The translations under genes and the position numbers were made by a program. The notes under the pieces are model-generated. The model made no database searches, was not told the origin of the DNA, and saw nothing but the letters and a program-made list of their open reading frames with translations. Shown in pieces: positions 4,490-60,730 of a DNA stretch of 64,000 nt (positions are counted from its first letter, which is position 1; every line of letters begins with the position of its first letter). Location: NCBI RefSeq assembly GCF_030252345.1, contig NZ_CP126980.1, forward strand, positions 9,309,501-9,373,500. Reading direction: 5' to 3'. Source of the stretch: Actinoplanes oblitus (GTDB taxonomy: Bacteria > Actinomycetota > Actinomycetes > Mycobacteriales > Micromonosporaceae).

Positions 4490-4586
4490 CGGTCCCGTGC
4501 TGCTCGGTCGGCAGCGCCGCCGATCCACCTCCGAAAGGCCCGCACTCCAGCGATCAGAACCGGCCCGCGATCCGGCGTCAGCTCGA

Positions 4587-4720
4587 TCAAGATCTTCCTG
4601 ACTCGGATCCGCGCTGATCACCGATCGTCGCTCCCGCCAGGGACCCTTCCGGGCTTCGCAGGGCGCTGGCGCGCCCAGAACGCGAAACCCGGAAGGGCGA
4701 CGTCCGCGGCCGCTCACGAC
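4587..4720 (-). repeat. Terminal hairpin module, copy A
   Basis: On the plus strand it runs from AAGATCTTCCTGACTCGGAT through GATCGTCGCTCCCGCC to a long stem-loop. Outer arms are CCCTTCCGGGCTTCGC and GCGAAACCCGGAAGGG, complementary over 16 positions with one mismatch. An inner stem GGGCGC/GCGCCC closes a TGGC loop and is followed by CAGAAC. Three other copies exist: B (in 60475-60591), C (15175-15285) and a degenerate D (28981-29062). The stems differ between copies but remain paired. It could be a transcript-end structure, a mobile-element terminus or a structured RNA. Confidence 0.75.
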
Positions 4721-5788
4721 CGCCAACCCAACCCCGAACCCCGCCCACTCCAGCCAGCCGGAAGCCCGGACCACGCCCCGTGACAACCCGAGCCGGCCCC
4801 ACGGCGGCCTCCTGGCCCTCAGACACCACCACCACAACCAGCCACAACCAACGGCCTGGCACCCACGGTGGCCTCCCGAGCCCGAAGACCACCGTCACGA
4901 CCAGCCAAGCCCAACGGGCTGGCACTCAGGGTCGTCTCCCGAGCCCGCACACCACCACCAATACCAGCCAAGCCCGACGAGACCGGATCAGCTGGCGCTC
5001 ACGGTGGTATCAGCAGCCCGGACACCACCGCTCCGACCAGCCACGATCGACGAGACCGACCGGCTGGCACTCACGGTGGTATCCCGGCCCTGGAGAGCAC
5101 CGTCACAACCAGCCAAGCCTGACGGGCTGGCACTCACGGTGGTATCAGAAGCCCGGACACCACCATCACGACCAGCCACGATCGACGAGACCGACCGGCT
5201 GGCACTCACGGTGGCATCCCGGCCCTGGAGAGCACCGTCACAACCAGCCAAGCCTGACGGGCTGGCACTCACGGTGGTATCAGAAGCCCGGACACCACCA
5301 TCACGACCAGCCACGATCGACGGGACCGACCGGCTGGCACTCACGGTGGCATCCCGAGGCCGGACACCACCGTCACAACCAGCCGCGATCAACGGGCTGG
5401 GGCTCAGGGTGGCATCCCGACCGGGAGAGCACCGTCACGACCAGCCGCGACCGACGGGCTGGCGCTCAGGGTGGCATCCCGCGGCCGGAGAGCACCGTCA
5501 CGACCAGCCAAGCGCGACGGGCTGGCGCTCAGGGTGGTATCCCGACGCCCGACACCACCGTCACGACCAGCCAAGCCCGACGGGCTGGCGCTCAGGGTGG
5601 CATCCCGAGGCCGGAGACCACCGTGACGACCAGCCGACGGGGTTGGGGGTTTGGGCGGGCTGCCGGTAGGGGCAGTTCGGCCCGGATGCGGCCTCGCGGT
5701 CGTGAGGTGACGGCGGCCTGGCGTCGAGGCACGGGACGGGGCTGTGCGGGTGGGGGCGGGGAGGGCGTACCGGAAAGGGTTTGAATCA
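4587..5788 (-). repeat. Composite repeat element A (tail + 63/72 bp hairpin array + terminal hairpin module)
   Basis: A 1.2 kb non-coding element between converging genes. Read on the minus strand it has three parts. First is a ~148 bp tail (5788-5641) whose first bases are the TGA stop of the DUF4031 gene. Second is a tandem array (about 5640-4837) with unit starts at 4837, 4900, 4963, 5036, 5108, 5171, 5243, 5306, 5378, 5440, 5503, 5566 and 5629, i.e. periods 63, 63, 73, 72, 63, 72, 63, 72, 62, 63, 63, 63. Third is a terminal hairpin module (about 4720-4587). Each array unit carries two short inverted repeats, ACCAGCC/GGCTGG and GGTGG/CCACC. Units of 62 and 73 bp break any reading frame, so the long open frames across it are not genes. 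An inverted near-copy is element B (59313-60591). Confidence 0.9.
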
Positions 5789-13432: not shown

Positions 13433-14719
13433 CTATCCCAGCAGGCCGGCTTCCCGCGCACCGCGCAGCGACGGCTTGATCCGGTGGGTCGGGCCGACCT
13501 CGGAGGCCACCGCGTCGAGCGTCTTCAGGCCCTCACCGGTGTTGTAGACGACGGTCTCCTTGGCCGGGTCCAGCCTGCCGCTGTCCACCAGTTTCTTGAG
13601 CACCGCGACGGTGGTGCCGCCGGCGGTCTCGGCGAAGACGCCGGTGGTCTCGGCGAGCAGCCGGATGCCGGCCCGGATCTCCTCGTCGTTCGCGTAGTCC
13701 ATCCAGCCGCCGGTGCGGCGGACCGCCTCGATCGCGTACGGCCCGGCCGCCGGGTCACCGATGTTCAGCGACTTGGCGATGCCGGTGGGCTTCACCGGGG
13801 TGATCACGTCGGTGTCGTTGTGCAGCGCCACGGCGATCGGGTTGCAGCCCTGCGACTGCGCGCCGAACACGGTCCAGCCACCCTCGGGCGCCTCGGCCAG
13901 GCCGATCTCGACCAGCTCGCTGAACGCCTTGTCCACCTTGGTGAGCAGCTCGCCGGAGGCCATCGGGATGACCACCTGGGCCGGAATCCGCCAGCCGAGC
14001 TGCTCGGCGACCTCGTAACCCAGGGTCTTGGAGCCCTCGGCGTAGAACGGCCGCACGTTCACGTTCACGAACGCGGTGTCCTCGAACTCGTCGGTCTCCA
14101 CCAGTTCGCTGCACAGCCGGTTGACGTCGTCGTAGGAGCCCTCGATGGCGACCAGCTCACCACCGTAGACCGCGGTGGTGACGACCTTGCCCTGCTCCAG
14201 GTCGGACGGGATGAAGACGATGCTCGGCACGCCGGCCCGGGCCGCGTGCGCGGCGACCGAGTTGGCCAGGTTGCCGGTGGAGGCGCAGGAGAACCGCTTG
14301 AAGCCCAGCTCCTTGGCCGCGGTCAGGGCCACCGAGACGACCCGGTCCTTGAACGAGTGGGTCGGGTTCTGCGAGTCGTCCTTGACCCAGAGCGGGGCGG
14401 TGATGCCCAGCCGCTCGGCCAGCGCCGGCGCGCTGACCAGGGGGGTCAGGCCGGGGTCGAGGGTCACCCGGGTGGCCGGGTCCTGGCCGGCCGGGAGCAG
14501 CGCGGCGTAGCGCCAGATGTTCTGCGGGCCCGCCTCGATCTCGGCCCGGGTCACCCGCGCGAGCGCCGCCTCGTCGTAGGCCACCTCGAGCGGGCCGAAA
14601 CACTCGTAACAGGCGTGCTGCGCGGCCAGCGGGTACTCAGCGGAACACGCGCGGCAGATCAGGCCACGGGCGGGCGAGGTGGAGGTCGTGTTTCCGGGTG
14701 CGGTGACGGCAGACGTCAT
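13433..14719 (-). CDS. thrC: Threonine synthase
   Basis: PLP enzyme converting O-phosphohomoserine to threonine and phosphate, 428 residues. Seen: an N-terminal zinc-ribbon-like CRACSAEYPLAAQHACYECF (residues ~23-42), found in the long thrC type, the PLP lysine in NPTHSFKDRVVSVAL, CASTGNLANSVAAHAARAG, and the phosphate loop MASGELLTK. The ATG at 14719 has AGGAAGG seven bases upstream. The leader is a SAM-I type riboswitch whose P1 3' strand touches the ribosome site. Control by SAM fits the branch point: phosphohomoserine is shared by threonine and methionine routes in some organisms. Confidence 0.95.
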   Translation of the reverse strand: MTSAVTAPGNTTSTSPARGLICRACSAEYPLAAQHACYECFGPLEVAYDEAALARVTRAEIEAGPQNIWRYAALLPAGQDPATRVTLDPGLTPLVSAPALAERLGITAPLWVKDDSQNPTHSFKDRVVSVALTAAKELGFKRFSCASTGNLANSVAAHAARAGVPSIVFIPSDLEQGKVVTTAVYGGELVAIEGSYDDVNRLCSELVETDEFEDTAFVNVNVRPFYAEGSKTLGYEVAEQLGWRIPAQVVIPMASGELLTKVDKAFSELVEIGLAEAPEGGWTVFGAQSQGCNPIAVALHNDTDVITPVKPTGIAKSLNIGDPAAGPYAIEAVRRTGGWMDYANDEEIRAGIRLLAETTGVFAETAGGTTVAVLKKLVDSGRLDPAKETVVYNTGEGLKTLDAVASEVGPTHRIKPSLRGAREAGLLG

Positions 14720-14731
14720 CGAGGCCTTCCT

Positions 14732-14866
14732 CTCATCTTTCCCCGGCGGCGACCTGCCGCTATGCGGGGACGGAATTAGCACCTGCCGCGCGCGGCCTCG
14801 TCCTCGAGACATACGCGGTGGTTGCCGGGGCTTCATCGGGCCGTTCCCTCTGCCCCTCTGGATGAG
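14732..14866 (-). ncRNA. SAM-I (S-box) riboswitch in the thrC leader
   Basis: On the minus strand the ~135 nt leader starts CTCATCCAGAGGGGCAGAGG, continues GAACGGCCCGATGAAGCCCC and GGCAACC, later GGTGCTAATTCC, and closes with GATGAG. These are the S-box hallmarks: P1 CTCATC/GATGAG, the GATGA kink-turn region, GCCCCGGCAACC and GGTGCTAATTCC. The closing GATGAG (14737-14732) is followed at once by AGGAAGG, the thrC ribosome site, so SAM-stabilised P1 would hide it. This suggests translational control rather than termination. Confidence 0.88.
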
Positions 14867-15039
14867 GTATTCAGTTGTTTCCCGAAGCTTACGACGAGAT
14901 CGCGCAATCTCCACAGCGAGTTCCCGAGGTGTGAGCGACCTCCTTTGCCGCGCGCCCCTCTCATCGGCTTCGTCGGCTTCTTCGGCGCTTCGTCGGTTTC
15001 CTCATCGGCCGGGGTCGCCGTCAGACTCCTCATCCGCCT

Positions 15040-15143
15040 CGTCATCGGCCGGGATTGCGGACGACCTCCCCATCGACCTCGTCATCGACCTCCTCATCGG
15101 CCTCCTCATCGACCTCCTCATCGACCTCCTCATCGGCCGGGAT
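15040..15143. repeat. 12 bp simple tandem repeat (CCTCCTCATCGA-type)
   Basis: About seven degenerate copies of a 12 bp unit (ACCTCCTCATCG / GCCTCCTCATCG). It lies in the ~440 bp gap (14870-15311) between the thrC riboswitch and the tandem-GNAT gene. Open frames across it (for example Met/Arg/Ser repeats on the minus strand) are products of the repeat. No gene is supported in this gap; its right part holds hairpin module C. Confidence 0.8.
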
Positions 15144-15174
15144 TGTGGTCGGCTTTGAAGATCAACATCAGAAT

Positions 15175-15285
15175 CCTGACTCGGGTCCGCGCTGATCACA
15201 GATCGTCGCTCCCGCCAGGGACCCTTCCGGGCTGAGCTGGCCGCTGCGCGTCCAGAACGCTCAGCCCGAAAGGGCGGCGTCCGTG
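15175..15285 (-). repeat. Terminal hairpin module, solo copy C
   Basis: Shares with element A the blocks CTGACTCGG.TCCGCGCTGA, GATCGTCGCTCCCGCC and AGGGACCCTTCCGGG. The outer stem here is CCCTTCCGGGCTGAG / CTCAGCCCGAAAGGG, i.e. CTGAG/CTCAG replaces the TTCGC/GCGAA of copy A while staying paired. The loop holds CTGGCCGCTGCGCGTCCAGA. No array or tail accompanies it. It sits just downstream of the tandem-GNAT gene, in the same orientation relative to the gene as A and B. Confidence 0.8.
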
Positions 15286-15311
15286 GGTGGGGAAGACCTC
15301 GGCAGCACCAG

Positions 15312-28946: not shown

Positions 28947-28980
28947 GTCGGCAAGCTGGCACACGATCTTTATTTGCGCA

Positions 28981-29062
28981 GGTCCGCTGGGGTGCGGATC
29001 GCATGCTCCCGCGCGGGCCGAGGCCGGCGATCTGGCCGCTGCGCGTCCATAGCGATCGCCGC
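28981..29062 (-). repeat. Degenerate hairpin module, copy D
   Basis: Contains GGTCCGC, GATCG, GCTCCCGC in the order seen in module C and then the same loop CTGGCCGCTGCGCGTCCA, but the stem is now GGCGATC (29026-29032) / GATCGCC (29054-29060). Loop sequence conserved, stem sequence replaced, pairing kept. It lies 35 bp past nagA in a 980 bp gene-free stretch. Confidence 0.55.
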
Positions 29063-29926
29063 CCTCTGCACGGCCCGCGGGTGGTCACCGAAACCCTGCC
29101 AACCCGCACCGCCGCACGACCCGCACCGCGCTGTCCGCACCGGTGCGCCATCCGTACAGCCGCGCCTCGTGCACCCCGCTCTGCCCGCACCGCTGCGCCA
29201 CCCGCACAGCCACACCCTGCGCCGCTGCAACCTCGCACGGCCGCGCCACCTGCCCCACGCCACCTGCACAGCCCACCGCCGGACCCACGCACCTGCACAG
29301 CCGCGCTGCTAAGACTGCGGCGCCACCCGCACCGCCGCGCCACCCGCACCCCCGCACCACCCGTACCCCCGCATCACCTGCGTAGCCGCACCGCCGCGCA
29401 ACCCGCGCCTTATCCACAACTGCCCGCTTGTCCACAGCCCGCCTCGTCGCGCCCCTCGAAATTCGCCACACTGTCCAAGGAAGGTCCCCCTTTGGGAGGG
29501 TGGGCTGCGAGCGCGGCCCGGTGACTGTGGGGCCGCCGAGCGCAGGAACCGCCGCACGCAGAAACCGCCGCACGCAGAAACCGCCGCACGCAGAAACCGC
29601 CGCACGCAGAAACCGCCGCACGCAGAACGCTCGACCGCAGGTCAGCCCACCGCGGGGCCCCGACCGCACCACTCTCCCCCATGCAGGAGTCCGATCGCAG
29701 GATCCACCGACCTGAGCGCCCTGTAAGAGCGAGCGACCCGCTGGAGGCGGGCCGGTCGGAGCGGCAGGTGGGGGCGGCCGGATAGAAGCGGCAGGTGGCC
29801 GGTAGAAATGGCGGGTCATGAACGGCGCGCCGGAAGCGGTCACCTCGGAGTGGCGGGTTGCAGCTGCTGCTCGAAGCGGGAGCAGGCACGTCTAGCGGCT
29901 CGAGAGCCAACCCGCCCCGCCAACCC
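29063..29926. other. Gene-free low-complexity region with 16 bp tandem repeats
   Basis: Between nagA and the MBL gene. 29085-29430 is made of short CGCACC/GCCGCGC-type iterations. At 29547-29627 five copies of a 16 bp unit (CCGCCGCACGCAGAAA) follow each other. Long open frames on both strands here are Ala/Arg/Cys-rich products of the composition and lack start signals. I see no gene. Confidence 0.7.
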
Positions 29927-41717: not shown

Positions 41718-41734
41718 GGTGAATCGACTTCCTT

Positions 41735-41780
41735 TCCACCGGCAGGAACGTGCCGGACGATCCGAGTAGAAGGAACAGCC
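41735..41780 (-). ncRNA. Candidate msiK-leader RNA motif
   Basis: The short leader between the predicted transcription start (~41779) and the GTG folds a perfect hairpin CCGGCA-CGTTCC-TGCCGG (41756-41739), ending four bases before the AAAGGAAG ribosome site. A conserved msiK RNA motif in this position is known in actinobacteria. I match it by place and hairpin, not by a covariance model. Confidence 0.6.
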
Positions 41781-41785
41781 CAGCC

Positions 41786-41854: not shown

Positions 41855-41928
41855 GCCTCCATAGCTCAGCTGGCCAGAGCACCCGTCTTGTAAACGGGAG
41901 GTCGTCGGTTCGAGCCCGACTGGGGGCT
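41855..41928 (+). tRNA. tRNA-Thr, anticodon TGT
   Basis: Complete cloverleaf: acceptor GCCTCCA / TGGGGGC (one G-U), D-arm AGCTCAGCTGGCCAGAGCA, anticodon stem CCCGT / ACGGG around CTTGTAA with anticodon TGT, T-arm GTCGG-TTCGAGC-CCGAC. Discriminator T; CCA is not encoded in full. A GC-rich hairpin follows. Confidence 0.96.
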
Positions 41929-41938
41929 CCGGTGGCGG

Positions 41939-59315: not shown

Positions 59316-60591
59316 TTCCAACCCTTTCCGGTACGCCCTCCCCGCCCCCACCCGCACAGCCCCGTCCCGTGCCTCGACGCCAGGCCGCCTTCACCTCACG
59401 ACCGCGAGGCCGCATCCGGGCCGAACTGCCCCTACCGGCAGCCCGCCCAAACCCCCCAACCCCGTCGGCTGGCCGTCACGGTGGTCTCCAGCCCCGCGAC
59501 ACCACCCGCAGCACCAGCCCGTCGCGCTTGGCTGGTCGTCACGGTGGTGTCCGGACCCGGGACACCACCCCGAGCACCAGCCCGTCGATCGCGGCTGGTC
59601 GTGACGGTGCTCTCCGGACCCGGGATGCCACCCTCAGCACCAGCCCGTCGGTCGCGGCTGGCCGTCACGGTGGTCTCCAGCCCCGCGACACCACCCTCAG
59701 CACCAGCCCGTCGCGCTTGGCTAGTCGTCACGGTGGTCTCCAGCCCCGCGACACCACCGTGAGTGCCAGCCCGTCGATCGCGGCTGGTCGTGACGGTGCT
59801 CTCCGGGTCCGGGATGCCACCCTCAGCACCAGCCCGACCGGACCCACCACCCCGGCTGGCCGTCACGGTGCTCTCCAGCCCCGCGACACCACCCTGAGCG
59901 CCAGCCCGTCGCGCTTGGCTGGTCGTGACGGTGCTCTCCGGGCCCGGGATGCCACCCTGGGCGCCAGCCCGTCGATCGCGGCTGGCCGTCACGGTGGTCT
60001 CCAGCCCCGCGACACCACCCTCAGCACCAGCCCGTCGCGCTTGGCTGGTCGTCACGGTGGTGTCCGGACCCGGGAAACCACCCTCAGCACCAGCCCGTCG
60101 CGCTTGGCTGGTCGTCACGGTGGTGTCCGGACCCGGGAAACCACCCTCAGCACCAGCCCGTCGCGCTTGGCTGGTCGTCACGGTGGTGTCCGGACCCGGG
60201 AAACCACCCTCAGCACCAGCCCGTCGCGCTTGGCTGGTCGTCACGGTGGTGTCCGGACCCGGGAAACCACCCTCAGCACCAGCCCGACCGGACTTACCGA
60301 TCGCGGCTGGCCGTGACGGTGGTATCCGGGCGCGGGACACCACCCTGAGCACCAGCCGATCGGTCTTGCCGGTCGCGGCTGGCGCCCGCGGTGGTATCCG
60401 GGCGCGGGAGACCACCGTGGGTGCCAGCCGGGGAGTGGGCGGGGTTGTGGGTTGGCGGTCGTGGCCAGCCACGGGCGTCGCCCTGGAGGGTCGGGCGTTT
60501 TGGACGCGCCAGCGTCCTGCCCGGCCCGGAAGGGTCCCTGGCGGGAGCGACGATCAGTGATCAGCGCGGATCCGAGTCAGCAAGATCTTGA
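59313..60591 (+). repeat. Composite repeat element B, inverted near-copy of A
   Basis: Reads rightwards from the lipoprotein stop. Tail 59313-59460 (TGATTCCAACCCTTTCCGGT...) is nearly identical to the element A tail over ~150 bp (e.g. CGTGCCTCGACGCCAGGCCG). Array 59461-60440: unit starts at 59513, 59576, 59639, 59702, 59765, 59828, 59900, 59963, 60026, 60089, 60152, 60215, 60278, 60351 and 60423, period 63 with some 72/73. The four units from 60026 to 60277 are identical, a recent expansion. Hairpin module: 60475-60591, with inner stem GGACGC/GCGTCC. Confidence 0.9.
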
Positions 60592-60730
60592 ATGTGATCT
60601 TCAGTTTTCGACGCATGTCGATACGCGAAGACCACTGCTTGCCGATGCCGCGAAGATCACCGCTTGCCGGGGCCGAGAAGATCACCGCTTGCCGGGGCCG
60701 CGAAGATCACCGCTAACCGGTGCCGGAAGC

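Follow-up and report, generated by a model that had tools for sequence, protein, structure and literature searches.

A Dispersed, Structured Intergenic Repeat in Actinoplanes oblitus with Strand-Specific Covariation in the Stem of Its Hairpin

Repeat Copies in the Window

The window (the whole analyzed stretch of 64,000 nucleotides of the Actinoplanes oblitus genome) contains a hairpin at 15175-15285, which was found to be one copy (copy C) of a dispersed repeat of ~150 bp. Nearby lies a gene for a PLP-dependent enzyme (13433-14584), and upstream of this gene a SAM riboswitch on the minus strand (14730-14868) adjoins copy C. A low-complexity repeat of the CTCATCGRC type occupies 14960-15150, between the riboswitch and copy C, and is absent from the syntenic place in the sister species G010. 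Copy C itself is absent at the syntenic place in both G010 and G029. Three further copies, A, B, and D, are present in the window (Table 1). Another dispersed repeat, likewise hairpin-like (CTGGCACTCACGGTGGTATCC ... GGAGACCACCGTCACGACCAGCC), adjoins some copies, at 4750-4900 and 60300-60470 of the window and also at L004, L006, and L051. Elsewhere in the window an msiK RNA motif was located on the minus strand at 41723-41781, beside a tRNA-Thr gene (41855-41930).

Table 1. Copies of the repeat in the window (ends of whole repeats approximate) and copies split by IS110 in the sister species G010.
Feature	Position or locus	Folded strand	Remarks
Copy A, whole repeat, subfamily A/B	4586..4722	minus	common to G010
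Copy A, main hairpin	4644..4697	minus	stem TTCGC/GCGAA; 136-nt fold, z -4.01
Copy C, whole repeat, subfamily A/B	15165..15290	minus	matched by models R1 and R2
Copy C, main hairpin	15222..15274	minus	stem CTGAG/CTCAG, apex GGCCGCTGCGCGTCC; 136-nt minus-strand fold, z -2.34
Copy D, whole repeat, second subfamily	28955..29090	minus	common to G010 (L043/L196)
Copy D, main hairpin	29020..29066	minus	stem GGCGATC/GATCGCC; 136-nt fold, z -2.01
Copy B, whole repeat, subfamily A/B	60472..60606	plus, opposite to A, C, and D	common to G010 (L011/L147)
Copy B, main hairpin	60481..60534	plus	stem CGGGC/GCCCG; 139-nt fold, z -2.43
D-type repeats of G010 split by IS110, both ends	L181, L189, L190, L198, L353, L367, L376, L381		
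D-type repeat of G010 split by IS110, left end only	L170		

The original prediction described a hairpin module with changing but always paired stems in four copies. The closing stems of all four hairpins were borne out on re-reading, as were the inner stems GGGCGC/GCGCCC in A and GGACGC/GCGTCC in B. The inner stem of C and D reads GGCCGC/GCGTCC, with one C.T mismatch, so that the stems are not always paired. Copies A, B, and C do belong together, but D represents a second subfamily with a large copy set of its own, and instead of four copies the genome holds 86 collected copies and five further matches to the core.

Anatomy, Copy Number, and Distribution

On the folded strand the repeat was found to consist, in order, of a 5' box ACCACYCACGC, ACGTCGCC, a long hairpin whose apex is conserved and whose stem is hypervariable, the core GCGGGAGCGACGGTC, a 3' domain and GACATC-N6-TTGATCTTGA. 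Fifty-three distinct 5-bp stem types occur among the extracted copies, which were selected by an apex pattern; the conservation of the apex is therefore partly by design, which does not hold for the stem. Sequence versions specific to single species were also seen.

About 90 copies are dispersed in the A. oblitus genome (a single contig of 9.81 Mb). Of the 86 that were collected, 38 have CTCCCGCC upstream of the apex and 48 do not, one of the 48 labelled D (L040) being without the D core. This core is found at 52 places with no more than one mismatch, 47 of them among the 86 and five further ones (resulting in a total of 91); with three mismatches it is found at 184 places, vs. 79 for a reversed-pattern control. 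In blastn searches of the same genome copy A had at least 44 matches (the best 40 of 110 candidates being scored) and copy D at least 49, nine of them weak and on the opposite strand (the best 40 of 282 candidates being scored).

In the GTDB collection the apex pattern matched at least 120 stretches, and all of the 80 matches listed lie in Actinoplanes or Paractinoplanes. The exact pattern was not found in viral contigs, where copies with another apex would escape it, and a blastn search with copy A gave no match in plasmids or phages; an origin from a phage, plasmid or viral contig was rejected on these grounds. A model of the repeat (R1) matched 27 of 60 relatives, corresponding to 27 of the 36 same-genus genomes (A. 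oblitus included), and did not match any of 24 genomes from other families of the order. The number of R1 copies ranges from 0 to at least 62 across the 36 genomes. However, three of the nine R1-negative genomes (G024, G025, and G028) were matched by a second model (R2), and the zero counts are lower bounds because R1 missed weak copies. Within the family, R2 matched 26 of 150 genomes, comprising 13 of the 15 same-genus genomes among those listed (104 non-matching family genomes are not itemized) and 13 genomes from six other genera with weaker scores; the E-values of both models are rough and the copy numbers are lower bounds. One of the matches in another genus (L416) is unlike the repeat on reading. 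Some of the species labels used below overlap, as certain named genomes and G-numbered genomes are one and the same (e.g., palleronii and G014), so not every label is independent; identical copies entered the counts only once.

In the other genera the boxes TGGCAG, GCGGGAGCGACGGTC, GGACCCGGGAC, and TTGATC are largely kept, and the hairpin they enclose differs, is short or is missing. It was considered, as an unlikely explanation, that the repeat is a lineage-specific parasitic element moving in the form of a folded single strand, be it RNA or ssDNA, by an undescribed mover, with a fixed scaffold kept across the genera of the Micromonosporaceae and a replaceable hairpin cassette that is swapped, shortened or lost.

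No match in Rfam release 15 overlaps the repeat in the window or at five of the collected loci (E up to 5). The family was likewise not found described in the consulted parts of the open-licence literature on Actinoplanes repeats and small RNAs, palindromic repeats of the Micromonosporaceae, ERIC and bcr1 (including PMC3733652, PMC3364876, and PMC3446304). A large structured repeat family without a match in Rfam or a description in these papers is thereby added to the genus of the acarbose producer.

Position Relative to Genes

The copies sit at the 3' ends of genes, which were called with a GC3-based script and not taken from an annotation. None of the 86 copies of A. oblitus lies within a called gene; 47 are between convergent genes, 16 and 18 between tandem genes in the two orientations, three between divergent genes and two are open. 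Only one of 241 copies from all species was placed inside a called gene, the other 240 being distributed over 122 convergent, 104 tandem, and 14 divergent gaps, although these counts are given without a background expectation and orthologous copies are not independent. Between tandem genes the two orientations occur 58 and 46 times, with no clear strand preference (two-sided binomial, 0.28).

No site with a hairpin followed by a T-run was detected on either strand in the 351-base stretches surrounding the four copies of the window. At other copies terminator likeness was judged by reading, and the canonical form was not seen there. The canonical intrinsic terminator was rejected in view of the four window copies and of orientations that are not clearly unequal; a non-canonical terminator function could still apply.

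Covariation in the Stem of the Hairpin

The arms of the hairpin could be read outward from the apex in 249 of 259 extracted copies (ten, with no upstream box or with N, were dropped), yielding 168 distinct arm pairs. The arms of one copy pair at 7.70 of nine positions on average, vs. 6.04 (maximum 6.37) when arms were permuted within species labels and 5.13 (maximum 5.51) when they were permuted overall (500 permutations each). In an alignment in folded-strand orientation of 70 sequences from many species (of 131 eligible), RNAalifold predicted 24 pairs, 14 of which change on both sides. This alignment was compared with a phylogenetic null in which the substitutions of each branch were re-placed at random columns (60 simulations with our own script, in the manner of R-scape). 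The stem pairs 51-101, 61-90, and 62-89 exceed all 60 nulls and are standard pairs in nearly all of the 70 rows. Pair 72-83, the covarying inner-stem pair of the original prediction, is also above all nulls, yet it is A.G in 40 of the 70 rows, G-C in 26, G.G in three, and C-G in one. The variable position of the inner stem is thus coupled but mostly does not form a standard pair, for which reason three covarying stem pairs are claimed and not four. Cross terms between neighboring stem columns account for two other pairs (E 0.017). Among the 36 distinct rows of subfamily A/B in A. oblitus, the inner pair is unpaired in 15 and the outermost pair of the variable stem in four.

Since the covariation survives both the permutation within species and the phylogenetic null, pairing of the outer stem appears to be selected, as had been predicted, and the covariation analysis proposed with that prediction, run here as a home-made form of R-scape, does not refute it. 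For the inner stem, whose variable position is mostly A.G in the 70 sequences, selection is less clear. Support from covariation is confined to the main hairpin and was not obtained for the 3' domain or for other helices drawn by eye. In subfamily A/B of A. oblitus two helices located 5' of the hairpin on the first-read strand are invariant. A 5' terminal hairpin (GCGTGA/TCACGC) seemed by eye to be paired on the first-read strand, which would speak against a single folded strand for the whole repeat.

The Folded Strand

Mismatches in the stems were counted over 15 positions of 147 distinct arm pairs and compared with 200 arm permutations. Read on the reverse of the first-read strand, the stems hold 166 G.U and five A.C mismatches (166 A.C and five G.T on the first-read strand). 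The G.U mismatches are at about chance level (187 in the permuted arms, lowest 166), while A.C mismatches are strongly depleted (75 in the permuted arms, lowest 57). The ratio of G.U to A.C is 100:4 when each combination of species label, position, and pair type is counted once, and 12:0, 12:3, 11:0, and 143:2 in four separate sets, A. oblitus and G010 sharing ancestry. As the mismatches on it are G.U and hardly ever A.C, the folded strand is the reverse of the first-read strand, on which the hairpin had originally been described. Counting G.U against A.C in this way can reveal which strand of a repeat folds.

The hairpin had been attributed to a structured RNA, a terminator or a cruciform, and it is the structure formed by a single strand that is favored by these counts. 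A bidirectional terminator or cruciform between convergent genes, acting symmetrically on both strands, would be in keeping with the stable hairpin and with 122 convergent against 14 divergent locations. However, a cruciform uses both strands alike and is therefore disfavored by the strong asymmetry of the wobble pairs; as conserved boxes also lie outside the hairpin and none of the four copies in the window has a canonical terminator site, this symmetric explanation is considered improbable. Only in the outer stem of the main hairpin was covariation found together with strand-specific G.U, the combination expected of a structured RNA.

One orthologous copy (L006 vs. L166) has its stem changed en bloc on both arms between the sister species, a difference that gene conversion or re-insertion can produce, and part of the stem variation may hence be due to conversion or replacement. 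This change, and the wholesale replacement of hairpins in other genera, would also agree with palindrome correction, in which template switching at replication makes the arms complementary without selection and the covariation is mutational. Later decay should then give G.U and A.C mismatches in about equal numbers and not 166:5, making this extremely unlikely as the sole cause.

Turnover between Sister Species and IS110 Insertions

The presence of the repeat differs between sister species. G010 has syntenic intervals for 37 A. oblitus loci. Of these intervals, 19 hold a repeat of the same subfamily and orientation, 11 have no match, three hold the other subfamily, three an inverted copy and one both. 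This set is not random, as some G010 stretches were chosen for holding a copy and others for having no R1 match or for synteny alone; it includes one ambiguous locus with two copies (L009) and one doubtful entry under the other subfamily (L040). At shared loci the orientation is the same or inverted in 15 and eight cases between A. oblitus and G010, 28 and seven between A. oblitus and other species, seven and five between G010 and other species, and 59 and 12 (with three odd cases) among the other species. A clean empty site with a target duplication was not found in 11 interval alignments between G000 and G010 and no clear ends were seen, because the intergenic DNA of the two is too diverged. 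At L064/L195 and at L014/L153, one intergenic locus carries the repeat in opposite orientations in the sister species.

One IS110 transposase, its family confirmed by Pfam, is matched 34 times in the G010 genome (90–100% identity). At all nine of the 34 places that were examined, the left end of the element falls within a D-type repeat, at CGGCCCGCGC^GGGAGC, and at eight of them both ends do so (Table 1). Halves of the repeat were not found at 26 other loci of relatives, three of them in A. oblitus. Many single copies can thus be split, which speaks against each copy being essential. The left end of the G010 element contains GGCCCGCGC, which on reading equals the target's left half, as a bridge-RNA guide of an IS110 element might. 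With its many copies, its presence and absence in sister species, and the fixed landing site of an IS110, the repeat offers a system in which the spread of small structured bacterial repeats can be tested.

A functional structured RNA (a 3' UTR or small RNA, e.g., a binding site or stabilizer at gene ends) that has been amplified without being selfish would fit the covariation tolerating G.U on one strand, the position of copies close to gene ends and in convergent gaps, and the loci common to several species, which more often keep the same orientation. The many loci common across species in the same orientation also fit long retention with a function. However, tandem copies show no clear preference of orientation (58 and 46), 11 of the 37 loci are without a match in the sister species, IS110 splits the repeat at all nine places examined, and nine of the 36 same-genus genomes have no R1 match, though three of these have R2 matches. 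Such an RNA is accordingly regarded as possible but rather unlikely.

Proposed Origin and Comparison with Known Repeat Systems

The explanation preferred here, and judged moderately probable, is that of a new dispersed structured intergenic repeat which folds as a single strand, is probably mobile and resembles REP, ERIC (the name of the 127-bp RU repeat), and bcr1 elements. From the turnover and the strand bias we infer mobility with a single-stranded step. The repeat would spread by being copied into intergenic gaps behind genes, by way of a single-stranded intermediate that has the sequence of the folded strand, is either RNA or ssDNA, and is recognized by its fold. As proposed, it is because of this recognition that the hairpin would have to pair on the folded strand, its sequence being free to drift or convert. 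Survival of copies would be highest in the gaps that follow genes. The analysis linked neither a transposase nor an integrase to the repeat, and the mover may act in trans or have been lost. A site like the attC of integrons was considered and set aside.

A more specific route would be retroposition of the SINE kind, in which a structured RNA is turned back into DNA and the copies end in a short 3' tail rich in TTGATC. In its favor are the RNA-like folded strand, the TTGATCTTGA-type words at the 3' end, which are repeated in some copies, and 3'-half units following full copies in tandem in six cases. However, tail repeats also fit slippage, and there is no clear signature of 5' truncation, 148 matches including 127 full copies, ten 3'-only (the six tandem ones included), and five 5'-only (L345 and L266 adjoin runs of N). 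Reverse transcriptase (RVT_1) has two matches in A. oblitus but none in the copy-rich G010 and G023, though 28 of the 36 genomes have one; the link to reverse transcriptase was set aside for this reason, and a retroposon is considered very unlikely. The extra 3'-half units (GGGAGCGACGG...GACATCnnnnTTGATCTT) directly follow a full copy at L276, L288, L294, L231, and L326.

REP elements, as far as the consulted parts of the source describe them, are 20–40 bp long with a short stem and fall into GTAG and CGTC superfamilies, the CGTC REPs having no known transposase (PMC3733652). The same parts show a likeness to the present repeat in high copy number, palindromic form, heterogeneous stems, and an intergenic position at the 3' ends of genes and between convergent genes; ACGTC precedes the present hairpin too, and neither CGTC REPs nor the present repeat have a known transposase (PMC3733652). 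Compared with REPs as described there, however, the present repeat differs in its length of ~150 bp, its 3' domain, its conserved apex with a bulge, and its one-strand wobble bias, so that CGTC is present but size and tail are not those of a 20–40 bp palindrome with a GTAG or CGTC tag. The RAYT-type Y1 transposase PF01797 has no match in A. oblitus, and a REP/RAYT system was therefore rejected. It was detected in ten of the 36 same-genus genomes, being absent from the copy-rich G016, G033, G034, and G003 and present in the copy-rich G010 (five matches) and G014 (three matches).

The enterobacterial RU-1, RU-2, RU-3, and related small mobile repeats are described, in the parts of the sources consulted, as intergenic and non-autonomous with sizes of 127, 168, and 103 bp (PMC2229807, PMC2759123). 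They are similar in size and likewise intergenic (PMC2229807, PMC2759123) but enterobacterial, the likeness to these partly consulted accounts being one of description and not of sequence. Bacillus cereus bcr1-bcr18 are reported in the consulted portion as MITE-like dispersed repeats, some of them transcribed and some with a conserved structure (PMC3446304). In dispersal and structure conservation they resemble the present repeat (PMC3446304); as far as that portion allows comparison, they differ in belonging to another phylum and the present repeat in being without established terminal inverted repeats or target duplications.

That IS elements can take REPs as their targets has been published, again as seen in parts of the sources (PMC1525189, PMC11208160, PMC11187229). 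The IS110 of G010 is similar to the IS110 systems with repeat targets described in those parts in using the present repeat as a fixed landing site (PMC11208160, PMC11187229, PMC1525189), although the repeat here is the target and not the IS110 element itself.
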